Positions 23,123-50,557 of a stretch of 50,557 nucleotides of DNA are shown here, one piece after another. The position numbers and the translations under genes were made by a program. Each line of letters opens with the position of its first letter. The stretch's first letter is position 1. The notes beneath the pieces are model-generated. The model was not told the DNA's origin and did no database searches. It worked only from the letters and a program-made list of their open reading frames with translations. Origin of the DNA: an uncultured Bacteroidia bacterium (lineage in GTDB: Bacteria > Bacteroidota > Bacteroidia > Bacteroidales > Prolixibacteraceae); assembly GCA_903902325.1 (NCBI GenBank), contig CAIUUO010000181.1, positions 1-50,557 on the forward strand, written 5' to 3'.

Positions 23123-24424
23123 ATGAATTTCAAAGACAAAAAAGTTGCATTTGGCACGCTGGGGTGCAAACTCAATTTTTCAGAGACTTCAACCATAGCG
23201 CGTTCATTTCAGGAGCAGGGATTCACGAAAGTTGATTTCAGGGAGCATGCGGATGTTTATGTAATCAATACCTGTTCGGTTACCGACTCTGCCGATAAAA
23301 AAAGCCGTGCAATGATCCGTCAGGCAACACGTCTGAATCCAGCCGCCTTTGTGGTTGTGATTGGTTGTTTTGCCCAGCTGAAGCCGGAAGAAGCAGCATC
23401 CATAGATGGAGTGGACCTTATTCTGGGAGCCAATGACAAATTCAACATCACCAGATATCTTGAAAACCTTGAAAAGCATACGCACAGCGAAGTACATGGT
23501 TGTGCATTCAAGGAGATCAATGAATTCCAGCCTTCCGCTTCATTTGGTGACCGAACACGTAGTTTTCTGAAGGTTCAGGATGGCTGCAATTATTTCTGTA
23601 CCTATTGCACAATTCCTTTGGCCAGAGGGAAAAGCAGGAATCCTTCGATAAAAAGCATTGTTCAGGAAGCAAAAGATCTATCTTCCCGGGGAATTATGGA
23701 GATTAACCTCACAGGGGTGAATATTGGAGACTTTGGAAAAAGTACGGGCGAAACCTTTCTGGATCTTCTGAAAGCGCTGGATCAGACCGAGGAGATCTTT
23801 AGAATCAGAATGGGATCCGTTGAGCCCAACCTACTTACCAATGAGATGATTGCTTTAGTAGCCAATTCCAAAAGAATAGCACCCCATTTTCATATTCCAC
23901 TTCAGGCAGGTACGGATGAGGTGCTCTCCCTGATGAAAAGGCGGTACAGTACAACTCTGTTTAAACAGCGAGTCGAAGAAATCAGGAAATACCTGCCTTA
24001 TGCATTCATAGGAGTAGATTTGATTGCCGGGATGAATGGCGAGACGGATGAACTTTTTGAAAAAGCATATCAATTTGTTGAACATCTGAATGTATCACAA
24101 TTTCATGCATTCCCTTTTTCGGAACGGGCAAATACGAAAGCACTTGGCATAGCCGGGGTTGTACCTGTTGCGGAACGCAAACTAAGAACGCTAAAACTGA
24201 TTCGGCTCTCAGAAAAAAAACTCCTTCAGTTTTATCAAGACAATCTGGGAAGAACTGCGTCTGTACTCTTTGAAAGTACCGCAAACAAAAAAAACACCAG
24301 CGGCTGGACAGAAAATTATATCAAAGTTGAAATGCCTTATCGTTCTGATTTAATGAATACTACAAAATATGTCCGGTTAAAGCAGATCAACAGCAACGGA
24401 CATGTTTTAGTTGATTTACTCTGA
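23123..24424 (+). CDS. mtaB: tRNA t6A37 methylthiotransferase MtaB
   Basis: A 433-aa radical-SAM methylthiotransferase, which adds a methylthio group to t6A37 of ANN-decoding tRNAs. The N-terminal UPF0004 domain carries three cluster cysteines, in TLGCKLNFSE, INTCSVTDSADKK and VIGCFAQLKPEEA. The radical-SAM CxxxCxxC motif is in GCNYFCTYCTIPLARGKSRN. The C-terminus ends in a TRAM-like segment (SGWTENYIKVEMPY). The order and the short C-terminus point to MtaB rather than MiaB or RimO. The ATG at 23123 was used; an upstream TTG at 23102 lacks support. It is co-directional with phoH and the phosphatase gene, 56 bases further on. Confidence 0.92.
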   Translation: MNFKDKKVAFGTLGCKLNFSETSTIARSFQEQGFTKVDFREHADVYVINTCSVTDSADKKSRAMIRQATRLNPAAFVVVIGCFAQLKPEEAASIDGVDLILGANDKFNITRYLENLEKHTHSEVHGCAFKEINEFQPSASFGDRTRSFLKVQDGCNYFCTYCTIPLARGKSRNPSIKSIVQEAKDLSSRGIMEINLTGVNIGDFGKSTGETFLDLLKALDQTEEIFRIRMGSVEPNLLTNEMIALVANSKRIAPHFHIPLQAGTDEVLSLMKRRYSTTLFKQRVEEIRKYLPYAFIGVDLIAGMNGETDELFEKAYQFVEHLNVSQFHAFPFSERANTKALGIAGVVPVAERKLRTLKLIRLSEKKLLQFYQDNLGRTASVLFESTANKKNTSGWTENYIKVEMPYRSDLMNTTKYVRLKQINSNGHVLVDLL

Positions 24425-39541: not shown

Positions 39542-40990
39542 CTACACGGTATAGGTAGAGGAAGCGGTATCTCCTCCCCGTCCGGTCCAGTTGGTATGGA
39601 AGAACTCGCCACGTGGTTTGTCAAGCCTTTCGTACGTATGCGCACCGAAGTAATCGCGCTGTGCCTGCAACAGATTGGCAGGAAGACGTTCGCTGCGGAA
39701 TCCGTCGAAATAGGTTAGTGCCGTGGCAAGACAAGGGATTGGAATTCCATTGGTAAAAGAAGCGGCAGCAACACGTCTCCAACCTGCCTGCGCCTTTTCG
39801 ATGGTATCAGTGAAGTATTTATCCAACAACAAATGTTCAAGTCCCGGGTTTTTGTCAAAAGCCTCTTTGATTTTCCCTAAGAATACAGAACGGATGATAC
39901 AGCCACCCCTCCACATCAAGGCGATGCCGCCGTTGTTCAGGTTCCATTTGTATTCCTTTGCAGCTTCTCCCATTAAGTCATAACCCTGTGCATAAGAGAT
40001 AATCTTGGCTCCAAACAGGGCATCTTTCAAATCATCCAGGAATTGTTTGCGATCGCCACTGAATTTTTTCTCTGGACCATGAAGAACCTTTGATGCCTTA
40101 ACCCTAAGATCTTTCTGGGCAGAAAGACACCTGGCAAAAACAGATTCTCCGATCAATGTGAGCGGAATGCCAAGATCAAGGGCAGCAACGCCAGTCCATT
40201 TTCCTGTACCTTTTTGTCCGGCTGTATCCAGGATTTTCTCAACAAGTGGTTCACCCTTTTCATCCTTGAATCCAAGAATATCACGGGTAATTTCAATCAG
40301 GTAACTGTCGAGGTCGCCTTTGTTCCACTCAACAAAAGTATCATGCATTTCATCTGCAGTCATTCCAAGCAGCTCTTTCATGATCTGGTAGGCTTCGCAA
40401 ATAATCTGCATATCACCATACTCGATGCCGTTGTGAACCATTTTCACAAAATGGCCAGCACCGTTTTCGCCAACCCAGTCACAGCAAGGTTCGCCATCAA
40501 CTTTTGCAGCAACTGCCTGGAAGATGGTTTTCACTGCCGGCCATGCAGCTGGTGAACCTCCGGGCATCATGGAGGGTCCCAACAGAGCGCCTTCTTCGCC
40601 ACCTGAAACACCGGTACCGATAAAGAGCAATCCCTTGCTTTCAACATATTTGGTGCGACGGATGGTGTCGGGGAAATGGGAATTTCCACCATCGATGATG
40701 ATATCTCCTGGTTCAAGGTGTGGAATGATCTGTTCAATAAAATCATCAACCGGTGATCCGGCCTTGACCAGCATCATCACTTTGCGAGGACGCTCCAGGT
40801 TTGCACACATCTCTGCAATGCTGTGGCATCCAATGAAATTTTTACCGGCACCGCGACCGGCGATAAATTTGTCGACTTTATCCACCGACCTGTTGTAAAC
40901 TGCCACAGTAAAGCCCTTGCTTTCCATGTTCAAAACGAGGTTCTCCCCCATTACTGCCAAACCGATTAACCCAATATCTGCCTTTTTCAT
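39542..40990 (-). CDS. gnd: 6-phosphogluconate dehydrogenase, decarboxylating
   Basis: A 482-aa enzyme converting 6-phosphogluconate to ribulose 5-phosphate with NAD(P)H and CO2. The dinucleotide motif is IGLIGLAVMGENLVLNM (residues 7-23), followed by GDIIIDGGNSHFPDT, SGGEEGALLGPSMMPGG and the catalytic GAGHFVKMVHNGIEYGDMQ. QKGTGKWTGVAALDLGIPLTLI and the C-terminal LLQAQRDYFGAHTYERLD complete a full-length long-form enzyme. It ends with a strong terminator. The upstream gene pdxB is 39 bases away on the same strand, so both may be read together. Its closeness to the aldonate genes further on may be functional. Confidence 0.96.
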   Translation of the reverse strand: MKKADIGLIGLAVMGENLVLNMESKGFTVAVYNRSVDKVDKFIAGRGAGKNFIGCHSIAEMCANLERPRKVMMLVKAGSPVDDFIEQIIPHLEPGDIIIDGGNSHFPDTIRRTKYVESKGLLFIGTGVSGGEEGALLGPSMMPGGSPAAWPAVKTIFQAVAAKVDGEPCCDWVGENGAGHFVKMVHNGIEYGDMQIICEAYQIMKELLGMTADEMHDTFVEWNKGDLDSYLIEITRDILGFKDEKGEPLVEKILDTAGQKGTGKWTGVAALDLGIPLTLIGESVFARCLSAQKDLRVKASKVLHGPEKKFSGDRKQFLDDLKDALFGAKIISYAQGYDLMGEAAKEYKWNLNNGGIALMWRGGCIIRSVFLGKIKEAFDKNPGLEHLLLDKYFTDTIEKAQAGWRRVAAASFTNGIPIPCLATALTYFDGFRSERLPANLLQAQRDYFGAHTYERLDKPRGEFFHTNWTGRGGDTASSTYTV

Positions 40991-41029
40991 TTTAAATTGT
41001 AATTTGTCATTTATAATTATCTGATTATC

Positions 41030-42151
41030 TTATAATTTAAATCCTAATTTTTTAAGCTTCTCAATTGCCTTTATCTGATTGATTTTCCCGTAAACCGTAA
41101 AAGAAGGAAACTCTCTCCTGACGGGATAATCACCTCTCTGCTTTTCAAAGGTGGCTGCGCTCTCTCTCAGGCGGGCATCATCTTCCCTGATGTTATAAGT
41201 TGCCAGGATAGCCTTTGAGAGAATCTCCTGAATGGACTTTCCGGTTCCATCGATGAGAATTTCAGTTGAAGCCGGCTTTTCCACATTGGTGGCTTTCCAG
41301 TTTTTGGAACCCAATCCAAGAAATTTACTTACTGCCTGAACGCTCATTTCTGTTCCCTTTGCCTTGCCATCCCTCGAATATCCGGCAATGTGAGGAGTTG
41401 CAAGGTCAACCAGATTAAGCAGTTCAAGGTCAATTTCCGGTTCATTTTCCCAGCAATCTACGATTGAACCCGAGACCTGGCCTGTAATTATTGCCTGTTT
41501 CAAGGCTGCGGTTTTTACCACCTCTCCCCTACAGCTATTAATGAATATAGGTTTCCGCGACATGCGGGAAAACAATGCCTCGTCTGCCAGGTGAAAAGTG
41601 TTGTCAACCCCCTCCATATTCAACGGAACATGCAGGGTGATGATGTCTGATTCTTCGAGTATCTTATCCAACCCAACAAATCCCTGTTCTCCTTCAACAC
41701 GCGCCCTTGGAGGGTCATTCAGTAATACCCGCATTCCCAAAATCTCCGCCAGCCTGGCAACCTTCGATCCAACATTTCCAACACCCACAATGCCAATGGT
41801 CATTCCAGCCAGTGACAAAGTCTTTTTTTCGGCCATTACCATGATGACCGAGGCGATGTATTGTTCCACTGATTTCGCGTTGCAACCCGGTGCATTGGTC
41901 CATTTGATCCCTGCACGATCGCAGTAATCCGTATCAATGTGATCATAACCGATGGTGGCTGTGGCGATGATTTTCACGGAAGACCCCGAAAGCAAAGCCT
42001 CGTTGCATTTGGTCCGGGTGCGGGTGATGATGGCATCTGCATCCCTGACCACTTCTGCTGTAGTCTTCGATCCCGGCAGGTAAACCACCTCCGCATAAGG
42101 CTCCAATGCTCCGTGGATGTATGGAATTTTGTCGTCGATGATGATCTTCAT
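41030..42151 (-). CDS. pdxB: Erythronate-4-phosphate dehydrogenase
   Basis: A 373-aa D-2-hydroxyacid dehydrogenase of the pyridoxal phosphate pathway. The N-terminus IIIDDKIPYIHGALEPYAEVVYLPGSKT is characteristic of PdxB. The NAD fold has TIGIVGVGNVGSKVARLAEILG, and catalysis uses the Arg in FINSCRGEVV, the Glu in DCWENEPEID and the His in ATPHIAGYSRDGKAKGTEM. The C-terminal DUF3410 dimerisation part (ILATYNIREDDARLRE, YPVRREFPSF) confirms PdxB over other members. The ATG at 42151 is standard. It is followed by gnd, and GGATAAAG repeats separate it from the LarA-like gene. Confidence 0.92.
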   Translation of the reverse strand: MKIIIDDKIPYIHGALEPYAEVVYLPGSKTTAEVVRDADAIITRTRTKCNEALLSGSSVKIIATATIGYDHIDTDYCDRAGIKWTNAPGCNAKSVEQYIASVIMVMAEKKTLSLAGMTIGIVGVGNVGSKVARLAEILGMRVLLNDPPRARVEGEQGFVGLDKILEESDIITLHVPLNMEGVDNTFHLADEALFSRMSRKPIFINSCRGEVVKTAALKQAIITGQVSGSIVDCWENEPEIDLELLNLVDLATPHIAGYSRDGKAKGTEMSVQAVSKFLGLGSKNWKATNVEKPASTEILIDGTGKSIQEILSKAILATYNIREDDARLRESAATFEKQRGDYPVRREFPSFTVYGKINQIKAIEKLKKLGFKL

Positions 42152-42197
42152 GCTATCCTTACTTGTTGAACTTTAAAATATACACTATTCTCATTGT

Positions 42198-42361
42198 AAA
42201 GGATAAAGGATAAAGTCAAAAGGATAAAGTACGCAACTAGCCTGATTTTAGCGTTTATTCTCGTGTTTCATGTCTTATCTCTTATATCTTCGAACCTACC
42301 GTTCTAATTTCCAGAGTCCCTCACTTTATCCTTTATCCTTTTTACTTTATCCTTTAGCCTT
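42198..42361. repeat. Inverted pair of GGATAAAG word tandems
   Basis: Left arm 42198-42230 is three AAAGGATAAAG-like units. Right arm 42322-42361 holds the reverse complement (ACTTTATCCTTTATCC and relatives) and reaches the LarA-like stop codon. The roughly 90-base spacer has no gene. The words match 572-694 and 26151-26176. Confidence 0.7.
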
Positions 42362-43651
42362 CTAGTACTTGAACCGTTCCCTGTACGCCCAAAGCCCCAG
42401 AGCCGGATTTGAGATGTAAAATACCTCTTCCCCGTTCGGCATGGTATTGAATCCATCTTTCAGCTTTTCGTGGTTGTATGTTTTTTCCATTTGCTCCAGG
42501 TTGGCATAATTGAAGCCAACGCTTTCAATCTCTGCTTCGGACAGGTTTTTGGGTTCACTGCCGGGGCAATAGGTAATATTGAACCGCCCTTCCGAGGATC
42601 CATGGATCAGATGCGCTGCTGCACTCAGGTTATTCCGGAGCTCCTCATGATCATCGCATGCCTTTAGGGTAGCCGGTGTTCCGAAATATCCATATTTCCT
42701 GATCAGGCGGTCAATTTCCTTGTCTTCGCCAAATTCGACCAGGGCCGGAGCCAGAATGATCAGTTCACCACCATCGGCAAGCGCCATCCGGGTACGGTAA
42801 ATGGATTTGTTGCCCAGCCAGGTACTTTTAAACTCTGTAGGATCTAGATATACCACGACTTTTTTCAGTGGTTTTTCGAGCATCTCGAAATTAACCTGCA
42901 AGGCCAATTTTGCTGCCAGGTCGAAAACTTCCATATCGTCGCCTATAAACAGACCACGGGTTTTGATTTTACCATCCGTTTTATCCAGTCCAACGACTGT
43001 CTGGACATAGATGATCGGCAAATCTTGGGTGAAATTGTCTGAGGCATAATTAAATACCCTGCGTACAGGTGTATCCGCATGACCCATCATTCTCTCCATG
43101 CCATAGGCTGCGCCGATAAAATGGCTTTTGTTGATACCTTCGACACCACCGGTTCCTACAAAAATATTCTTGTTGTAGTTGGCCATGCCCACCACTTCGT
43201 GAGGCACCACCTGACCCAGTGAAAGAATCAGATCAAACTTGCCTTCCAAAAGCAATTTATTCACCTGAGCAGGCCAAGGGAAACTCACGGCTCCTTCAGA
43301 TACCTTCTCAACGAATGCAGCAGGAACTTCACCAACAGTTACCACGTCGTTCCGCCAATCATGTTCCCGGATCAGGGTAGCAGGCAATGAACCGAACATA
43401 TGGGAGATCTGGTGAGCTGTCATCGGAGTGTGCGTACCCAGCGCCGGCAGTACATCCGTCAGCGCATCGCCATAATATTGCCAGGTCATTTCGGTCAGTT
43501 CACCAGCCCTGCTAGGCAGTCTGGTATAATCCGGCGGAATGGCAAGCACCTTCTTGCGTTTGCCCATTTTTTTAAATGCCTCAAAAAGACCTTTCTTCAG
43601 GTCTGAAGCGGAGAGTTCATGGGAGGTTGAACCAGTCTTGTAGTAAATCAT
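42362..43651 (-). CDS. LarA-family nickel-pincer hydroxyacid epimerase (probable aldonate epimerase)
   Basis: A 429-aa protein of the lactate-racemase (LarA, DUF2088) superfamily, which uses a nickel-pincer nucleotide cofactor to move a hydride at C2 of hydroxyacids. IPPDYTRLPSRAG matches the family's PDxTRP motif. His74 (LGTHTPMTAH) and the triplet His151-Lys161-His177 (VVPHEVVGMANYNKNIFVGTGG...SHFIG) repeat the 10- and 16-residue spacing of LarA His174-Lys184-His200, so cofactor binding looks intact. The neighbours are a mannonate-type SDR, a sugar kinase and a UxaE-like gene, so I infer mannonate/gluconate epimerisation rather than lactate racemisation. The cofactor genes larB, larC and larE are not in the window. 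Confidence 0.85.
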   Translation of the reverse strand: MIYYKTGSTSHELSASDLKKGLFEAFKKMGKRKKVLAIPPDYTRLPSRAGELTEMTWQYYGDALTDVLPALGTHTPMTAHQISHMFGSLPATLIREHDWRNDVVTVGEVPAAFVEKVSEGAVSFPWPAQVNKLLLEGKFDLILSLGQVVPHEVVGMANYNKNIFVGTGGVEGINKSHFIGAAYGMERMMGHADTPVRRVFNYASDNFTQDLPIIYVQTVVGLDKTDGKIKTRGLFIGDDMEVFDLAAKLALQVNFEMLEKPLKKVVVYLDPTEFKSTWLGNKSIYRTRMALADGGELIILAPALVEFGEDKEIDRLIRKYGYFGTPATLKACDDHEELRNNLSAAAHLIHGSSEGRFNITYCPGSEPKNLSEAEIESVGFNYANLEQMEKTYNHEKLKDGFNTMPNGEEVFYISNPALGLWAYRERFKY

Positions 43652-43688
43652 TTCGACTCAATTATTAATATGATGTAAAAGCAATCAA

Positions 43689-43824
43689 TTTTGGATTTTA
43701 GATTTTCGATTTTGGAATATGGAACTCCGAACATTTGATCTAAGGGTTCACCCATTGTGACCGTCAGAATTTTGAATGATCATGCCCCTTGAATCGAAAA
43801 TCCATAATCGAAAATCCAAAATTT
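43689..43824. repeat. Inverted AATCGAAAATC words between kinase and LarA-like genes
   Basis: GATTTTCGATT (43701-43711) is the reverse complement of AATCGAAAATC (43806-43816), which is itself repeated at 43792-43802. The flanks also match (TTTTGGATTTTAG versus AAAATCCAAAATTT). This fills most of the 178-base gap. Confidence 0.6.
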
Positions 43825-43829
43825 ACCTT

Positions 43830-44909
43830 TTAGCGTTTCACCCTGGCATTCCCCTTCCAGATGCTCCATACCATATCTTCATCGGCAGGTTGGGCATAGT
43901 CTGTGAGGAAGGTCGTGGCGAGTGCGCCGGAGGCCCAGCCGAACTGGATCCATTTGGCGGCTTCCCACCCTTTCAGGATTCCGTAAAGCAATCCGCCCAC
44001 GAAACCATCCCCTCCGCCAATACGGTCGAGAACATTGATTCTTCTGGGTTCGACTACATGCCAGTCTTCACCTTCGAGCATGATGGCACCCCAGAGGTGC
44101 TCGTTGGTACTGACAACTTGACGCAATGTGGTGGCAAATACCGATGCATTCGGGAATTTCGCCTTCACCCTGTAAATCATCTCCTTGAATCCGTCAATCT
44201 CGGATGAAATCTGCTTTCCGCCGGCTTCTGGACCTTTTATGCCGAGACACAACTGGAAATCTTCTTCATTACCGATCAGGATGTCGGCAACAGAAGCAAT
44301 CTCTTCGAAGATCGCGCTGAGTTCCGCCTCTCTTCCTTTCCAGAACGATGCACGGTAGTTCAGGTCGAATGCGATACGGGTTCCATGTTTTTTGGCGCTT
44401 CGAGCCAATTCGAGGCAGAATTTGCTGGTTTCGGGCGACAAGGCACCGATCAGTCCCGAAAGATGAACAATCTGGACACCTTCTTGCTTAAAGATGCGAT
44501 CAAGGTCAAAATCCTTCACGTTCAGTGTCCGACCAACTTCACCTGCCCGGTCATTCTGAACCCTTGGACCACGTGTTCCAAAACCGCTGTCGGCAATGTT
44601 GAACTGGTGACGGTAACCCCATGGATCCCCCTGTTCAACCTCTGGTCCTTCAAAAGTCATTCCGCGGGCCCACAGATTGCTTTTAATCATGCTGGCAATC
44701 GGACTGTCCTTGACAAAGGTTGTCAAAACCTTTACTGGAAGACCGAGATAGGAAGAGATACTGGCCACATTGGTTTCTGCACTCGAAACCTCCATCTGAA
44801 AGAGGCTGCTGCTGTGAACAGGTTGTCCATTCACGGGAGTGATACGAATCCCCATGCTGGTGGGAACCAGCAAGGAAGTCTTGCAATTGCTTTTGATTGT
44901 TAAGCTCAT
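43830..44909 (-). CDS. PfkB-family sugar kinase, probable 2-keto-3-deoxygluconate kinase
   Basis: A 359-aa ribokinase-fold kinase. The substrate region has SAETNVASISSYLGLPVKVLTTFVKDSP. The lid is followed by the long RHQFNIADSGFGTRGPRVQNDRAG, like KdgK proteins that carry a YYRxxSA or PxxxxNDRAG phrase. GTRIAFDLNYRASFW follows, then ILIGNEEDF and the catalytic DRIGGGDGFVGGLLYG. The anion-hole motif is GGGD, with Gly in place of the usual Ala of GAGD. The NDRAG block and FDLNYRASFW suit 2-keto-3-deoxygluconokinase; gluconokinase activity cannot be excluded and matters for the pathway model. It lies 136 bases from the SDR gene, a gap filled with tandem and inverted repeats. Confidence 0.82.
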   Translation of the reverse strand: MSLTIKSNCKTSLLVPTSMGIRITPVNGQPVHSSSLFQMEVSSAETNVASISSYLGLPVKVLTTFVKDSPIASMIKSNLWARGMTFEGPEVEQGDPWGYRHQFNIADSGFGTRGPRVQNDRAGEVGRTLNVKDFDLDRIFKQEGVQIVHLSGLIGALSPETSKFCLELARSAKKHGTRIAFDLNYRASFWKGREAELSAIFEEIASVADILIGNEEDFQLCLGIKGPEAGGKQISSEIDGFKEMIYRVKAKFPNASVFATTLRQVVSTNEHLWGAIMLEGEDWHVVEPRRINVLDRIGGGDGFVGGLLYGILKGWEAAKWIQFGWASGALATTFLTDYAQPADEDMVWSIWKGNARVKR

Positions 44910-44914
44910 ATGAA

Positions 44915-45034
44915 AATGTTTGAAGGGTTTGAAATGTTTGAAGGGTTTGAAATGTTTTAGTTCTTAAACGAAAGTCGAAGGGATAGCTATTGTTTAACTT
45001 TTCAAACCTTTTAAACAACGTAAACATTTCAAAC
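44915..45034. repeat. 18-bp tandem repeat with inverted copy upstream of the kinase gene
   Basis: AATGTTTGAAGGGTTTGA occurs at 44915-44932 and 44933-44950 with a third partial copy from 44951. GTTTGAAATGTTT (44927-44939) is the exact reverse complement of AAACATTTCAAAC (45022-45034). The arrangement could fold into a long hairpin in the kinase leader. Confidence 0.75.
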
Positions 45035-45045
45035 TTTTTGATTTC

Positions 45046-45897
45046 TCAGACTCCGCTATATGCATTGAAACCACCATCAATAGGGATCACAATACCCGTA
45101 ACGAAAGAAGAAATATCCGATAGCAAATAGAGTGTCGCACCCTGCAAATCGTCAGGATCGCCAAATTTTCCCATCGGGGTATTGGTAACAATCTTGTTTC
45201 CTCGGGCTGAATAACCACCGGTTTTTTCGTCCAGTACCAGGAAACGGTTCTGATTGGTAATGAAGAAACCCGGCGCGACGGAATTGACCCTTATGCCCAT
45301 TTTTGCGAGGTGAACGGCTAGCCATTCTGTGAAATTATTGACGGAAGCCTTGGCGGCAGAATAGGCAGGGATCTTGGTAAGGGGGTGGTAAGAGTTCATG
45401 GAAGAGATGTTCAGCACAGATCCTTTCTGGCTTTTCAGCATATCTTTGGTAAACACCATCGTGGGAAGGATAGTTCCTTTAAAATTCAGGGCAAAAACCT
45501 TGTCGAAACCCTCCATCTGAAGTCCGTAAAAGGTTTTTTCGAGATTATCCAGATCGGCTACTTCCATTTGCTCCACCTGGGTGGTTGCCTGCGGTGAATT
45601 TCCTCCGGCACCGTTAATCAGAAGTTCAATAGGGCCTAATTTCTCATTGATTATCAACTTGGCAGCTTCAAGCGATTCCTTGTCAAGAACATTGGCTTTT
45701 ACACCGATGCAGGTAGCACCAAACTCTTTGCTTATATCTGTAGCCACCTGCTGGGCCAATTCTTCGTTGATATCTACGATCGCCACTTTTACACCTACTG
45801 AAACGAGTGCCTTAACAAGTGAGATTCCGATCACACCGGCTCCACCGGTAATAACACATACTTTTCCGTTCAGGTCATCAAAAGAAATTTTCTTCAT
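45046..45897 (-). CDS. SDR oxidoreductase, probable D-mannonate (fructuronate) oxidoreductase
   Basis: A 283-aa classical short-chain dehydrogenase. The dinucleotide motif is VITGGAGVIGISLVKAL (15-31), LLINGAGGNSPQAT is the NAG-like segment and the catalytic Ser-Tyr-Lys is in SSMNSYHPLTKIPAYSAAKAS. The insertion PQATTQVEQMEVADLDNLEKTFY (about 101-123) and GFFITNQNRFLVLDEKTGGYSARGNKI fit the SDR group annotated as D-mannonate oxidoreductase, seen with hexuronate genes in Bacteroidota, Firmicutes and Thermotoga. That group would reduce fructuronate to mannonate with NAD(P)H. The gene is second after the LacI-type regulator (28-base gap), which supports a sugar-acid role. Gluconate 5-dehydrogenase is the alternative. 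Confidence 0.85.
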   Translation of the reverse strand: MKKISFDDLNGKVCVITGGAGVIGISLVKALVSVGVKVAIVDINEELAQQVATDISKEFGATCIGVKANVLDKESLEAAKLIINEKLGPIELLINGAGGNSPQATTQVEQMEVADLDNLEKTFYGLQMEGFDKVFALNFKGTILPTMVFTKDMLKSQKGSVLNISSMNSYHPLTKIPAYSAAKASVNNFTEWLAVHLAKMGIRVNSVAPGFFITNQNRFLVLDEKTGGYSARGNKIVTNTPMGKFGDPDDLQGATLYLLSDISSFVTGIVIPIDGGFNAYSGV

Positions 45898-45925: not shown

Positions 45926-46981
45926 TTAGATGGAATTATAAAAATCAATATTTTCTTTGGTAATCAAATCAATGGAGGTGTAATTCTCTTTTCTGATCTT
46001 CTCTTTTTTAACCAGGTGATCGAAGAGTAGATGAATGGCATGACTGCCCTGAAGTTCTGGCTTCTGGCAAATAAGGAAATCAATAACACCCTCTTTGAGC
46101 AATCCAATGTTCTCTGGTATAAGGTCATAGCCGACAATTTTCGGCGTGTAACATCTTGATTTGAAAAAGGATGCCGCACTGTGGACTTTGGAATTGGTTA
46201 CGAAAATCCCACTGACTTCGCACGGTTCGATTCCAATTACCTTCAAATGGGATAATATCTCCTGCTCTATGTTTCCTGATACCTCAATTTTAAATATTCT
46301 GTGTTTATCACTCTTTTTCAACTCAAAATAGCGAAAAAATCCTTTTTCGCGAAGTAAAAGGTGATTGGCATTGTCCAGCTCTTTGGCAACATGAATTAGC
46401 AGGATGATACCTTCCTCCCTGGTGCCCCAGTCAATCAGTTTGGCCGCCAAAAAACCGCTGTCAAATGAACTTTGCGCCACAAAACTAATCGGATGTGTAT
46501 CAGGAAGGATTGAATCAATGTATACATATGGAATAGTAAGCTCATCCAGCTTCCTTGTAAAACTAATTGCTTCTCTTTTGGCACAAGGTGCAAGCATCAC
46601 TGCATCAGGCTCACAAAGCAGTAATTTCGCAGCCTCTGTCGAGAAAGAAGAAGAGTCTTCCATTTCAAAAAAATACTGTTTGATTTGAACACCGTATTCT
46701 ATCAGCTGATTTCTTGCCTTTTCAACTCCTGAATGAGGTTTGGACCAGTAATTATCCTGATTGGATGCTTTAGGCATTAGCGTGGCAAATACGATGCTTT
46801 TTTTTGAGGCCAGACTGCTTGCCAGAAGATTTGGCCTGTAATCCAGTTCGTCAATGATATGTTGAATTTTCGATTTTGTATCATCCGATACTTCACCCCT
46901 GTCGTGCAGTACCCTGTCGACCGTTCCAATAGAAACGCCTGCCCTGAGTGCAATATCCTTGATCCGGATTTTCTTTTTCAT
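45926..46981 (-). CDS. LacI-family transcriptional regulator
   Basis: A 351-aa protein. The DNA-binding head is at residues 4-55 with helix-turn-helix IRIKDIALRAGVSIGTVDRVLHDRGEVSDDTK and hinge DELDYRPNLLASSLAS. The effector domain follows as a periplasmic-binding fold (IVFATLMPKASNQDNYW, AVMLAPCAKREAISF, IVGYDLIPENIGLLKEGVIDFLICQKPELQG). Such regulators usually release DNA when bound to a sugar or sugar acid. It is first in the minus-strand group and divergent from GH3. An inverted-repeat motif at 47027-47040 lies in its own promoter region and again before uxaE, so it is the likely local repressor. Confidence 0.92.
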   Translation of the reverse strand: MKKKIRIKDIALRAGVSIGTVDRVLHDRGEVSDDTKSKIQHIIDELDYRPNLLASSLASKKSIVFATLMPKASNQDNYWSKPHSGVEKARNQLIEYGVQIKQYFFEMEDSSSFSTEAAKLLLCEPDAVMLAPCAKREAISFTRKLDELTIPYVYIDSILPDTHPISFVAQSSFDSGFLAAKLIDWGTREEGIILLIHVAKELDNANHLLLREKGFFRYFELKKSDKHRIFKIEVSGNIEQEILSHLKVIGIEPCEVSGIFVTNSKVHSAASFFKSRCYTPKIVGYDLIPENIGLLKEGVIDFLICQKPELQGSHAIHLLFDHLVKKEKIRKENYTSIDLITKENIDFYNSI

Positions 46982-47002: not shown

Positions 47003-47010
47003 CAAACTTA
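47003..47010 (-). promoter_or_regulatory. -7 box for the LacI-type regulator gene
   Basis: On the minus strand TAAGTTTG matches TAnnTTTG, 22 bases before the ATG. The operator candidate lies 17-30 bases upstream of it, covering the expected -33 region. Confidence 0.5.
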
Positions 47011-47026
47011 AACATTTTTTCAACAT

Positions 47027-47040
47027 CGTGTACGGACACG
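47027..47040. promoter_or_regulatory. Candidate operator, copy 1 (regulator/GH3 divergent region)
   Basis: CGTGTACGGACACG has 5-bp inverted arms (CGTGT, ACACG) and is followed by GAAA. Twelve of 14 bases plus the GAAA match the site at 49159-49172. It lies in the 151-base gap between the divergent regulator and GH3 genes. Confidence 0.6.
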
Positions 47041-47096
47041 GAAAAATATTTGCATGAAAAAAGAGAACGATTTCCATAGATCAAATAAAATTTGGG

Positions 47097-47104
47097 TATT
47101 TTTG
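47097..47104 (+). promoter_or_regulatory. -7 box for the GH3 gene
   Basis: TATTTTTG matches TAnnTTTG and lies 29 bases before the GH3 ATG at 47133. No exact -33 TTTG is found at the usual distance. Confidence 0.4.
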
Positions 47105-47132
47105 ATTGGAGGTTACCAAACAAGCCAGAAAC

Positions 47133-49097
47133 ATGAAAAAAATTTTGCGGGGATTATTCTATTTGTTGCTAGGAATCAGCGCTTTGATCATTTCGGGGAT
47201 TCTGATTTTCAATCTGTACTATGATTTGTTGAATTACAACGCAAAAAAACAACTTTTTGAAGTTAAGATACTGACGGAAAATGGTTTCACCTACCGAGAT
47301 CTGAATAAAAATGGTCGACTGGATCTTTACGAAGATTCCCGTGTCCCTTTGGAAGATCGTGTCAGTGATCTTTTGAAACAGATGAACCTGGAAGAAAAAG
47401 TGGGATTGATGTGGCATCCGCCCATTGGAGTCGGAAAAAAAGGTGAAATAGTCGGAAAACCGAGCATCGAGACCATGAGTTTCAGTTCAAACTATGATTT
47501 AGTGGTAACTAAGAAAATCTCTCATTTTAATCTGTTTACAATACCAAAATCTCCTCTGCTGGCAGCCTGGTACAATACCATTCAGAATATTGCCGGACAA
47601 ACAAGGCTGGGAATTCCGCTCACCATCAGTACAGATCCCCGTCATGGAATCGCAAATTTTCTTGATAACAAGCTACTGGAAAGTGATTTCTCCAAATGGC
47701 CTGAACCCATTGGACTTGCTGCTACAGGCGACTCTGATCTGGTGGCCGAATTCGGACGCATTGCCAATCAGGAATACCGTGCAGTTGGAATACGAACGGC
47801 CCTTCATCCCATGGCCGATCTGACTACTGAACCCAGGTGGGCCAGAATGAACGGAACATTTGGAGAGGATGCCGATTTTGCCTCAAAAATGATTGCAGCC
47901 TATATATATGGATTCCAGGGTGAAAAACTCGGACCCCAGTCGGTTGCCTGTATGACCAAACACTTTCCAGGAGGTGGTCCTCAGGGCGGCGGGAATGATG
48001 CCCATTTCCATTATGGCAAATTTCAAAAGTATCCGGGAAACAACTTTAAATACCACCTGATACCGTTCGAAGCAGCCTTTAAGGCAGGTGCTGCCATGAT
48101 CATGCCTTATTATGGGATACCTACCGACCAGACCAGTGAAAATGTGGGCATGAGTTTCAACAAGGAGATTATTACTGACCTTTTGCGCAATAAATATAAA
48201 TATGATGGAATCGTTTGCACGGATTGGGGTATTCTCCAGGGAATGTCATTTCTTGGCTACGAAATCGTTGAACCTAAAAACTGGGGTGTGGAAAAACTCA
48301 GTATCGGTGAACGTATTAAAAAAGCCATTGATGCCGGAGTTGATCAGTTTGGCGGGAACGACAATACGGACGAGTTGATTAAACTTGTGAAGGATGGTAA
48401 GATACCCGAAAGCAGGATCGACCAGTCTGTCAGGCGATTGCTGCGGGCCAAATTTACCATGGGATTATTTGACAATCCATTTGTGGATGAAAAGCAAGCC
48501 GCTCAGATCGTCGGCAAAAAAGAATTTGTGGATAAAGGGAAACTGGCTCAGAGAAAATCGATCGTTTTACTGAAAAACTATAGGAAACCCGACAGTAGCT
48601 ATGTTTTACCACTGAAAAAAGGATTAAAAATTTATGTGGAGAACATGGACAGGCAAATAGCCTCCACTTACGGAACAGTAGTGGATAGCGTCTGCGATGC
48701 CGATTTTGCGATTATCCGGACAAGAACTCCTTTTGTTCCGCGTAATGGTGACATGATCGAAAGGATGTTCCATCAGGGAGACCTTGATTTCAAGGATCCT
48801 GAAAAAAGCAGGCTACTTCTCATGATGAAATTAAAACCTACCATTGTTTGCATCTACCTTGATCGCGCTGCAGTAATTCCGGAAATCACCGCACATTCCT
48901 CCGGGCTGCTAGCCGATTTTGGTGCAGCTGACGATGCTGTGCTCGATGTAGTTTTTGGGAATTTTAACCCTAACGGGAAGATGCCATTCGAACTTCCCTC
49001 TTCCATGGAGGCAGTTACGAAACAAAAAGAGGATTTGCCTCACGATTCAGAGAATCCTTTGTTTCCTTTTGGATGGGGGCTGAGATACAGGAACTGA
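47133..49097 (+). CDS. Exported glycoside hydrolase family 3 enzyme
   Basis: A 654-aa GH3 protein. A short hydrophobic N-terminus (about residues 5-30, LFYLLLGISALIISGILIF) acts as signal or anchor. An EF-hand-like calcium loop (DLNKNGRLDLYED, about 52-64) precedes the catalytic barrel, a combination seen in other bacterial GH3 proteins. The barrel includes GIPLTISTDPRHGI, EPRWARMNGTFGED, MTKHFPGGGPQGGG and the nucleophile Asp364 in GIVCTDWG. A C-terminal sandwich follows (LAQRKSIVLLKN, LPSSMEAVTKQ, LFPFGWGLRY); no fibronectin III domain is present. ATG 47133 was chosen over a TTG at 47106. GH3 enzymes are mostly beta-glucosidases and beta-xylosidases; its place beside uronate genes suggests an oligosaccharide feeding that route. 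Confidence 0.88.
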   Translation: MKKILRGLFYLLLGISALIISGILIFNLYYDLLNYNAKKQLFEVKILTENGFTYRDLNKNGRLDLYEDSRVPLEDRVSDLLKQMNLEEKVGLMWHPPIGVGKKGEIVGKPSIETMSFSSNYDLVVTKKISHFNLFTIPKSPLLAAWYNTIQNIAGQTRLGIPLTISTDPRHGIANFLDNKLLESDFSKWPEPIGLAATGDSDLVAEFGRIANQEYRAVGIRTALHPMADLTTEPRWARMNGTFGEDADFASKMIAAYIYGFQGEKLGPQSVACMTKHFPGGGPQGGGNDAHFHYGKFQKYPGNNFKYHLIPFEAAFKAGAAMIMPYYGIPTDQTSENVGMSFNKEIITDLLRNKYKYDGIVCTDWGILQGMSFLGYEIVEPKNWGVEKLSIGERIKKAIDAGVDQFGGNDNTDELIKLVKDGKIPESRIDQSVRRLLRAKFTMGLFDNPFVDEKQAAQIVGKKEFVDKGKLAQRKSIVLLKNYRKPDSSYVLPLKKGLKIYVENMDRQIASTYGTVVDSVCDADFAIIRTRTPFVPRNGDMIERMFHQGDLDFKDPEKSRLLLMMKLKPTIVCIYLDRAAVIPEITAHSSGLLADFGAADDAVLDVVFGNFNPNGKMPFELPSSMEAVTKQKEDLPHDSENPLFPFGWGLRYRN

Positions 49098-49099
49098 GG

Positions 49100-49113
49100 G
49101 TGAAAATTTTCAC
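49100..49113. promoter_or_regulatory. 14-bp perfect palindrome after the GH3 gene
   Basis: GTGAAAATTTTCAC begins 3 bases after the GH3 stop and is followed by an A-rich run. It may be a site for a dimeric regulator or part of a weak terminator. Confidence 0.35.
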
Positions 49114-49158
49114 AAAAAATCTTTCTATGTTCGAATAAATACAAAAAATAATTACTTT

Positions 49159-49184
49159 CGTGAACGAACACGGAAACTTTTCCG
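49159..49184 (+). promoter_or_regulatory. Candidate operator, copy 2, at the uxaE promoter
   Basis: CGTGAACGAACACG (49159-49172) shares 12 of 14 bases with copy 1. It overlaps a -7-like TACTTTCG (49153-49160) that has TTCG (49130-49133) 19 bases upstream. Right behind it, CGGAAA and TTTCCG form another small palindrome (49171-49184). Binding here would block uxaE transcription. Confidence 0.55.
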
Positions 49185-49263: not shown

Positions 49264-50514
49264 ATGAAAAAATTAGGAAAATACAGTTTTGGAATTGGCG
49301 ACAGGTTCGCACATCAGGGAAATGCACAATTGAGAGCGTTGATGAAAGCACAAAATGGCGGAATTGAGGTAATACCCGTTTGGAACAAATCCAACAGGGA
49401 GCATGGCTATGTCCATTCATTGCCTCCTGATACCAGGAAAGAAGCAGACTCTGCCGTGAAAGATTTGGGCTACAAAGGCGATTATTGTGTAGATGCCGAC
49501 CATATCAACCTTGGGAATGTAGAGGGATTCATCCATTCATCCGATTTCTTCACCATCGATGTTGCCGGAAAAATTGGAATTCCTGCATCGAATGAGGATA
49601 TTCAGGCATTTATCGCTTCCTGCAAATCATACACAGGACAACTTAATATTCCCAACATCTCCCATCCTTTCCTGGTGGATGAGGATCTGTTGAAAAAAAT
49701 TGCAGGTAAATTTTTAACTGCCATCAACGAAGCCGGAAATATCTACAGGTTTATCACCGACAGAAAGGGTGCCGCTAATTTCGTTACTGAGATATCGATG
49801 GATGAAGTTGAATCTCCACAGTCTCCCGTGGAGTTATTCTTTATTTTGAAAATGATTGCCAACCAGAATATACCAGCCCAGACCATCGCACCCAAATTCA
49901 CTGGCAGGTTTAACAAAGGTGTTGATTATGTTGGTGAAGTATCCATGTTCGCTAAAGAATTCGAAGAGGATATCCTCGTTATCGATTATGCCATCAAGGA
50001 ATTCCATCTTATGGACAACCTAAAACTGAGTGTTCATTCCGGATCAGATAAATTTTCCATCTATCCAGAAATTCAGCGCATTCTTACCAAATACGACAAA
50101 GGAATCCATGTCAAAACAGCTGGTACGACCTGGCTGGAAGAGGTAATCGGATTGGCTGTTTCAGGTGGTGAAGCGCTTAAAGCCGCCAAATCAATTTATG
50201 CACAGGCATTGACACGTCAGGAAGAGTTGTGTGCCCCTTATGCCGATGTGATCGACATCAAGGCAGACCAGTTGCCTTCCGTAGCCGAAGTTGAAGGCTG
50301 GAGCAGTGAAAAATATGCCAATACGCTCAGGCACATTCCAGGCCACCCTGATTATAATCCAAATTTCAGGCAACTGATCCATGTTGGATACAAGATTGCC
50401 GCCGAGATGGGTGACTATTATACCGATTTACTGAAAGCAAACAAGGTTGTGATTGGTCAGTGCGTCGAAGAAAACCTTTACGACCGCCATCTCAAACGCC
50501 TCTTCAAACTTTAA
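49264..50514 (+). CDS. uxaE: Tagaturonate/fructuronate epimerase (UxaE family)
   Basis: A 416-aa protein starting KLGKYSFGIGDRFAHQGNAQLRA. It belongs to the UxaE family, whose Thermotoga maritima member converts D-tagaturonate to D-fructuronate and so joins the galacturonate and glucuronate routes. Family-like blocks include IIPVWNKSNREHGYVHSLPPDTR-like text (VIPVWNKSNREHGYVHSLP), DADHINLGNVEGFI with likely metal-binding Asp and His, IAPKFTGRFNKGVDYVGEV, LSVHSGSDKFSIYPEI and HVKTAGTTWLEEVIGL. HIPGHPDYNPNFRQLIHVGYKIAAEMG lies near the end. No signal peptide is present, so it is cytoplasmic. It follows GH3 by 166 bases, with its own promoter and candidate operator. The recognition is by recalled sequence features, not by a search. 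Confidence 0.86.
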   Translation: MKKLGKYSFGIGDRFAHQGNAQLRALMKAQNGGIEVIPVWNKSNREHGYVHSLPPDTRKEADSAVKDLGYKGDYCVDADHINLGNVEGFIHSSDFFTIDVAGKIGIPASNEDIQAFIASCKSYTGQLNIPNISHPFLVDEDLLKKIAGKFLTAINEAGNIYRFITDRKGAANFVTEISMDEVESPQSPVELFFILKMIANQNIPAQTIAPKFTGRFNKGVDYVGEVSMFAKEFEEDILVIDYAIKEFHLMDNLKLSVHSGSDKFSIYPEIQRILTKYDKGIHVKTAGTTWLEEVIGLAVSGGEALKAAKSIYAQALTRQEELCAPYADVIDIKADQLPSVAEVEGWSSEKYANTLRHIPGHPDYNPNFRQLIHVGYKIAAEMGDYYTDLLKANKVVIGQCVEENLYDRHLKRLFKL

Positions 50515-50515
50515 G

Positions 50516-50557
50516 AAAGTGCCTAAAGTGAACTAAAGTGACTAGAGTGCCTAAAGT
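50516..50557. repeat. CTAAAGTG near-tandem words at the right edge
   Basis: Two bases after the uxaE stop, words AAAGTGCCTAAAGTG, AACTAAAGTG, ACTAGAGTG and CCTAAAGT follow one another to the window edge. It is another member of the intergenic word-repeat class and probably continues beyond the window. Confidence 0.6.

Follow-up and report, generated by a model that had tools for sequence, protein, structure and literature searches.

Three LacI-family uronate regulators, UxaR (BT0824), UxuR (BT1434) and KdgR (BT0487), were predicted in Bacteroides by Ravcheev et al. (PMC3878776), and a later survey of the family places all three on one branch (PMC4052901). According to the text of that survey, LacI-family operators are in general even palindromes with a central CG, autoregulation is found in 72%, and most sites lie 30-140 bp upstream of start codons. 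Here we describe a pair of such palindromes in a 50,557-nucleotide stretch of DNA from an uncultured member of the Prolixibacteraceae (GenBank assembly GCA_903902325.1, contig CAIUUO010000181.1, positions 1 to 50,557; hereafter "the window"). The palindromes lie at the gene of a LacI-family protein (45926-46981, minus strand, 351 aa) and at uxaE, the tagaturonate epimerase gene (49264-50514, plus strand; PF16257).

The locus is similar in kind to the Bacteroides systems. UxaR, UxuR and KdgR are predicted LacI-family regulators of glucuronate and galacturonate genes (PMC3878776), as is the protein here, and the palindromes of the window share the even symmetry and central CG of the family. Unlike those regulons, the gene set here includes uxaE, a uxuB-like short-chain dehydrogenase (SDR) gene and a group-18 LarA gene. 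Seven Bacteroides-labelled homologs of the regulator (L121, L126, L127, L128, L144, L145, L155), 34-37% identical to it, have paired palindromes and stand beside kdgK and a KDPG aldolase gene, six of them also beside uxaA. These pairs lie between the regulator and the kdgK/KDPG aldolase genes, 82 bp apart; other Bacteroides-labelled loci (L124, L125) have one site. The outer bases differ, CGTG..CACG here versus mixed CGTG/TGTG..CACA at the Bacteroides-labelled loci. Among more distant homologs, 16 of 77 loci (L116-L192) carry [CT]GTG..CG..CAC[AG] within 500 bp upstream, and most of the 61 without it are of the Prevotella type. Judged from its sequence, we rate the protein of the window as one that would work like UxaR, UxuR and KdgR, a known kind of regulator.

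Two palindromic sites at one locus

The first putative operator, O1 (CGTGTACGGACACG, 47027-47040, plus strand), lies 45 bp upstream of the regulator start codon and just upstream of a -7-like box of that gene. The second, O2 (CGTGAACGAACACG, 49159-49172, plus strand), overlaps a -7-like box of uxaE. A sequence-only reading of the window had proposed these two 14-mers as a shared motif of the LacI-type protein, and they do stand at these positions, with 12 of 14 bases in common and GAAA after each. Both are even palindromes with a central CG. The exact core, CGTGNNCGNNCACG, has two matches in the whole 4,788,520-base (4.79 Mb) genome, and these are O1 and O2; the genome scan that the earlier reading had suggested thus found the core nowhere but in these two places of one locus. 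When up to three mismatches to the first 14-mer were allowed, five matches were found within the window versus a shuffled mean of 1.02, a number reached in none of 100 shuffles. The five consist of the two sites on both strands and one weak place at 23546.

Both sites are placed at predicted promoters. We take TAnnTTTG to be the -7 box of Bacteroidota. A box of this type, TAAGTTTG, is predicted for the regulator at 47003-47010 (minus strand), and the predicted uxaE box, TACTTTCG (49153-49160, plus strand), differs from TAnnTTTG at one base and shares its last two bases with the start of O2, so that the overlap claimed by the earlier reading is present. Judged by position, the regulator promoter would be covered by O1 in its upstream part, and the uxaE promoter by O2 at its -7 box.

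The sites, their conservation, the promoter-like boxes, the target genes and an insertion between the sites are observed. It is very probable that O1 and O2 are operators of the LacI-family protein at 45926-46981, which would repress the run of genes that begins with the regulator as well as uxaE, and that the pair was split by the insertion of a GH3 glycoside hydrolase gene.

Conservation upstream of regulator orthologs

A regulator match at an E value of 1e-30 or better was found in 117 of the 140 genomes of the family. From 108 of these genomes, 109 stretches of upstream DNA were read, G108 contributing two because it has two copies; the other nine genomes (G007, G048, G052, G054, G057, G077, G078, G109, G138) were left out, their matches being incomplete, located at a contig end or to a paralog only. 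The exact core is present within 300 bp upstream of the regulator orthologs in 107 of the 109 stretches, placing a candidate operator at the regulator's own promoter, as in autoregulated LacI regulons, while the reversed pattern is present in none. The site was found in 15 of the 17 genera of the set. At least one exact core occurs somewhere in 114 of the 117 genomes with a regulator match, versus 8 of the 23 without one (two scans compared by hand). All 158 sites have A at position 10, which the search pattern did not fix, whereas the central CG is there by construction.

The promoter boxes are kept along with the sites. A TAnnTTTG box lies on the regulator strand between the regulator start and O1 in 106 of the 107 stretches with a site, G034 being the exception, and it is 9-20 bp from O1 except in genera g17 (109) and g20 (130). 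At uxaE, O2 overlaps TAnnTTCG in all 53 listed loci that have two exact sites. The fetched DNA reached uxaE in 58 stretches. Two exact sites are present in 52 of these (the window and G099 included), one exact site in five (G090 and four g17 genomes, in which the other site is one mismatch off) and none in G102. A single site within the first 400 bp is seen in 48 of the 49 stretches of at least 1000 bp that lack a nearby uxaE; the remaining stretch has no site there. The comparison with the same gaps in related genomes, which had also been suggested for the window, therefore finds the sites kept both upstream of the regulator orthologs and at uxaE.

Because the sites are conserved at fixed places, the pair is non-random, and the earlier view that two sites in one locus exceed chance is borne out by this conservation. 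That two palindromes should merely resemble each other by accident has in its favor that the core is expected about twice per genome, the number obtained with the reversed control; with the sites held at fixed places in 15 of 17 genera, we regard such a coincidence as scarcely credible. It is also very improbable that the sites serve a different LacI-family protein of the genome instead of the one encoded beside them. The genome does hold other LacI-like genes (three weaker matches), but the presence of the site follows the orthologs of the adjacent regulator (107 of 109), and the exact core was found upstream of none of 20 paralogous regulators (34-40% identical to the query).

The DNA upstream of those paralogs has its own pattern. 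TGTG..CG..CACA is present in 10 of the 20, CGTG..CG..CACA in one, and neither in nine. The DNA-binding loop reads RGEV in all 22 orthologs for which it was printed, and the E (residue 29) is replaced by K or R in all 17 of the 20 paralogs whose read covers that residue. By alignment with E. coli LacI, this residue would presumably correspond to His29. The TGTG..CACA sites accompany K-type paralogs, and the seven R-type paralogs have no such site upstream. A lead from these data is that the outer operator base, C or T, is read by this one loop residue, E in the RGEV orthologs and K in the RGKV paralogs with TGTG..CACA; the ortholog and paralog groups are also clades.

Regulon content

To see which other genes carry the motif, 18 off-locus sites in relatives were read with their flanks. 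These were picked by hand as consensus-like; a site in G112 (the sister of that in G111) and less typical ones in G027, G028, G062, G070, G071, G072, G085 and G115 were left out. A relocated uxaE operon follows four of the 18 (L275, L278, L289, L290), with a single site kept there, and uxaB-uxaA follows seven (L279, L280, L282, L283, L284, L285, L287). One more (L286) adjoins an SDR gene that is 68% identical to the uxuB-like gene of the window. Genus g2 was read in addition, with the pairs of G010, G013 (C43), G015 and G020 outside the reading; nine of its 11 off-locus sites are at uxaB, five of these nine being twins with a spacing of 32-33 bp. A 32-bp spacing peak in the LacI-family survey (PMC4052901) matches the twin sites before uxaB (32-34 bp). 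Predicted sites thus stand at uxaE, uxaE-uxaC and uxaB-uxaA, which are catabolic genes of glucuronate and galacturonate. Read in this way, the motif marks the predicted regulon of a LacI-family repressor of hexuronate genes, which in kind closely resembles the UxaR, UxuR and KdgR regulons predicted for Bacteroides. A published statement of the motif was not found in a literature search from which supplements and RegPrecise logos were excluded, and the motif may be in print.

Several observations weigh against this interpretation. The core is short, and its reversed control likewise has two places in the genome. A tighter pattern with one mismatch allowed is rarer in the genome than its reversed control (4 and 3 versus 9 and 11). 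G115 and G102, which have no exact site within 300 bp of the regulator, are the sole members of genera g18 and g14 in the set, and, since relatives share ancestry, counts of genomes overstate the independence of the cases. Four of the 18 off-locus sites stand at a gene group with a 3-keto-disaccharide hydrolase, a TIM-barrel isomerase or both, as identified by Pfam for one gene each in L274, L276 and L288 and by gene size and order only in L277. Two more (L273, L281) are at genes without a link to uronates, and the remaining two of the 11 in genus g2 (L108:7533, L109:6678) occupy the same position upstream of an Fe-S protein cluster.

The rarity of the core was considered as evidence in its own right and rejected: the reversed pattern is equally frequent in this genome and often as common in other genomes of the family, and the loose core with two mismatches allowed shows no excess in the window (7 found, 6.86 expected). 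Four further places in the genome are one mismatch off CGTGNRCGNACACG, fewer than the reversed control count, and the open reading frames at them (L253, L255, L291, L292) had no match to 20 reference proteins. Since the reversed control is as frequent as the core, rarity alone is weak evidence, and we rely on conservation and placement.

On that basis the proposal that these are operators of the LacI-type protein is supported for two of its three targets. A predicted operator role at the regulator itself and at uxaE has strong support, in that the sites are conserved, that they stand at promoter boxes and that relatives also carry them at unlinked operons of uxaE-uxaC and uxaB-uxaA; for the GH3 gene, the third target, such a role is not supported (see below). 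As a separate observation, the group with the 3-keto-disaccharide hydrolase and TIM-barrel isomerase, seen in four genomes, is a possible further target of the regulon.

The binding, the dimers, the repression, the inducer and the extent of the operons are what we infer. A repressor dimer on O1 would cover the DNA just upstream of the regulator -7 box and would repress the regulator together with the downstream genes for the uxuB-like SDR, the kinase and the hexonate epimerase. A dimer on O2 would cover the uxaE -7 box and block transcription of uxaE. A metabolite of hexuronate breakdown would release the repressor from both sites.

The distance between the operators

The two sites are held at a nearly constant distance in relatives. 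Among 55 close pairs (four g17 pairs included), the O1-O2 spacing is 88 (5), 89 (23), 90 (19), 91 (4) or 92 (4) bp, with a standard deviation (SD) of 1.0. By comparison, the distance from the regulator start to O1 ranges from 42 to 157 (SD 29), and that from O2 to uxaE, taken to the start of the protein match, has an SD of 41. The 88-92 bp pair lies outside the spacing peaks given in the text of the LacI-family survey (13, 22 and 32 bp; PMC4052901).

There are few exceptions. The spacing is 2132 bp in the window and 970 bp in G099, whose two operators are separated by a 2-oxoacid dehydrogenase acyltransferase family gene (L092, 7770-8753). In g10, g22 and most g5 genomes, a homolog of that gene adjoins a regulator with one operator. 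The two sites of G024 are split between contigs, next to 116 and 362 bp of other sequence, which makes them at least 478 bp apart or relocated.

We consider three readings of the set distance: compact divergent promoters, a looping pair, and a third element between the sites. In lac and gal of E. coli, two operators of one LacI-family repressor lie in one control region. Here, unlike in those pairs, two divergent promoters have one operator each, no tetramer tail is evident and looping is only a proposal. Under that proposal, repressor bound to O1 and O2 would bend the 74-78 bp between them as a cooperative unit, the fixed distance would be needed for full repression, and the GH3 insertion would have broken the unit. 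The small SD of the spacing beside the two larger ones speaks for such a unit, as do the Bacteroides-type loci, which also have a set pair distance (82 bp in seven of eight pairs, 78 in the other). However, 88-92 bp corresponds to about 8.4-8.8 turns at 10.5 bp per turn, which would put the sites on different faces of the helix unless the twist is looser in vivo. LacI-type tetramer tails lie at the C-terminus, and none is evident here, where the match to 3gbv, whose own tail was not inspected, reaches residue 350 of 351 of the query. Moreover, the pair is pulled apart in the window and in G099 (G024 being the further case above), and relocated uxaE keeps a single site at four loci. Looping is thus a less likely reading of the distance, given the lack of an evident tetramer tail, a distance near a half turn and sites pulled apart in at least two genomes, and as an account of the locus we think it unlikely.

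The distance could also be fixed by an element in the spacer. A TATGTTnTAnAACATA-like element just past O1 was scored in the spacers of relatives (L011-L030, L086, L088, L090, L104 and others), the split spacer of the window being excluded. It resembles the Crp/Cur (BT4338) site wwwTATGTTnTAnAACATAwww, but its left half often has TATT for TGTT; the consensus is from PMC3878776, and one such site was tested in PMC6989115. Outside genus g1, in 46 of 49 pairs and in all six genera, the best spacer match to this consensus begins 5-7 bp past O1; in genus g1 this holds for none of the six pairs. Single matches are often no better than shuffles (P up to 0.69), and the evidence lies in their constant position. 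A Cur-like element upstream of the uxaE promoter may be what fixes the distance. A broader version of this idea is a module of fixed geometry, in which a Cur-like activator element is flanked by the two operators of a uronate repressor at a set distance from each other. Such a switch, about 100 bp long, would couple pathway repression to activation under carbon limitation; it would be widespread in one family of Bacteroidota and echoed in Bacteroides, and its outer operator base would be read by the E/K loop residue. We offer this version tentatively, as a possibility to which the odds are not favorable.

The GH3 insertion

The GH3 gene (47136-49097, plus strand) lies between O1 and O2 in the window. 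In all six congeners with both sites on one contig (G025-G030), GH3 is absent between the sites and the spacing is 88-89 bp. The similarity of the window to the congener spacer ends near 47062 and resumes near 49135: the flanks at 47041-47062 and 49135-49158 resemble the spacer at P 0.003 or less and in 0 of 300 shuffles, respectively, and further into the insertion the sequence does not stand out from shuffles against the spacer (P 0.07 and 0.5). The segment limits for this test were chosen after the alignments were seen. Because the flanks match the congener spacer and the inner parts do not, an inserted stretch of about 2.07 kb (47063-49134, ends approximate) replaced roughly 30 bp of spacer. 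The stretch left of GH3 (47063-47105) was also considered as a possible copy of the uxaE promoter; this was rejected, as the likeness did not stand out from shuffles (P about 0.07).

The best relatives of this GH3 in the family are 64-73% identical and belong to other genera (the one at 73% is partial); the match in congener G028 is about 50% identical. The core with up to one mismatch was found near none of 11 GH3 relatives (L066-L076), whose flanks were covered over about 1.5 kb per side in most cases and over less in some; GH3 was rejected as an ancestral member of the regulon on this ground. In a longer stretch of one relative (L103), a less typical core lies 1.8 kb upstream, inside another open reading frame. 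The GH3 relative in L099 is among starch/glycogen genes by Pfam and that in L098 among other genes; L097 and L100-L102 have neighbors similar in size to those of L099.

The sequence-only reading placed O1 where it could control GH3 as well as the regulator, and this part of it is not upheld. It is the insertion alone that put GH3 downstream of O1, between operators that are 88-92 bp apart in relatives, and the gene has a predicted -7 box of its own (TATTTTTG, 47097-47104, plus strand) that starts 56 bp past O1. From these comparisons we conclude that GH3 is not an ancestral member of the regulon. It might still have been recruited, with O1 acting on its promoter as well as on that of the regulator; O1 does lie upstream of GH3 and of its box, but it is ancestral to the regulator promoter and too far upstream to cover the box, and the 11 loci of GH3 relatives are without a site in flanks of up to about 1.5 kb. 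We find such recruitment rather doubtful. The sequence of events that we favor is that an ancestor had O1 and O2 88-92 bp apart in one compact divergent control region and that, in this genome, about 2.07 kb with the GH3 gene then came to lie between the two, so that each operator stayed with its own promoter.

Genes of the locus

The regulator has a LacI helix-turn-helix at residues 7-51 (PF00356, 59.2 bits) and a sugar-binding core at 68-326 (Peripla_BP_4, PF13407, 75 bits), both over the cut-off, and its best match among solved structures is 3gbv. Downstream of it on the minus strand are a D-mannonate oxidoreductase gene (the uxuB-like SDR, 45046-45897; NF006132, 373.7 bits, cut-off 281), a PfkB-family sugar kinase gene (43830-44909), and the gene of a nickel-dependent putative hexonate epimerase of LarA group 18 (42362-43651; NF052594, 654.8 bits, cut-off 500). 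A PdxB-like dehydrogenase gene and a 6-phosphogluconate dehydrogenase gene follow further along the run. Largely the same run, without GH3, is present in the extended loci of relatives. The order from regulator to 6-phosphogluconate dehydrogenase is conserved between the window (39542-45897, minus strand) and L077-L105, and the run of the relatives also holds a GFO/IDH/MocA oxidoreductase gene, between the group-18 epimerase and the PdxB-like gene.

The gene run suggests a route from fructuronate through mannonate, gluconate and 6-phosphogluconate into the pentose phosphate pathway. The altronate dehydratase domain PF20629 had no match in the window's genome, and contig C122 carries uxaC at its end; no exact site is present in L313. 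The lack of PF20629 and the presence of uxaC fit a route via uxaE, which would convert tagaturonate into fructuronate. The window's contig ends in short AGTGCCTAAAGT-type repeats (50520-50557), and its last 20 bases recur as the reverse complement near the end of C122. For this reason the assembly probably broke at a repeat of this type between uxaE and uxaC.

Implications

The pair provides a directly testable operator for a uronate repressor, one that is well supported across 15 genera of the family. The analysis also corrects a tempting error, since the nearness of GH3 to O1 does not amount to membership in the regulon. The locus links a group-18 LarA enzyme to uronate catabolism; the assignment of that group as a hexonate epimerase, and with it the substrate class, is so far only a published hypothesis (PMC7583248). 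A gene captured between the two operators allows one to ask whether their set distance matters, and, if the module of fixed geometry is real, the GH3 insertion and the split pair in G099 would be natural experiments that uncouple it.

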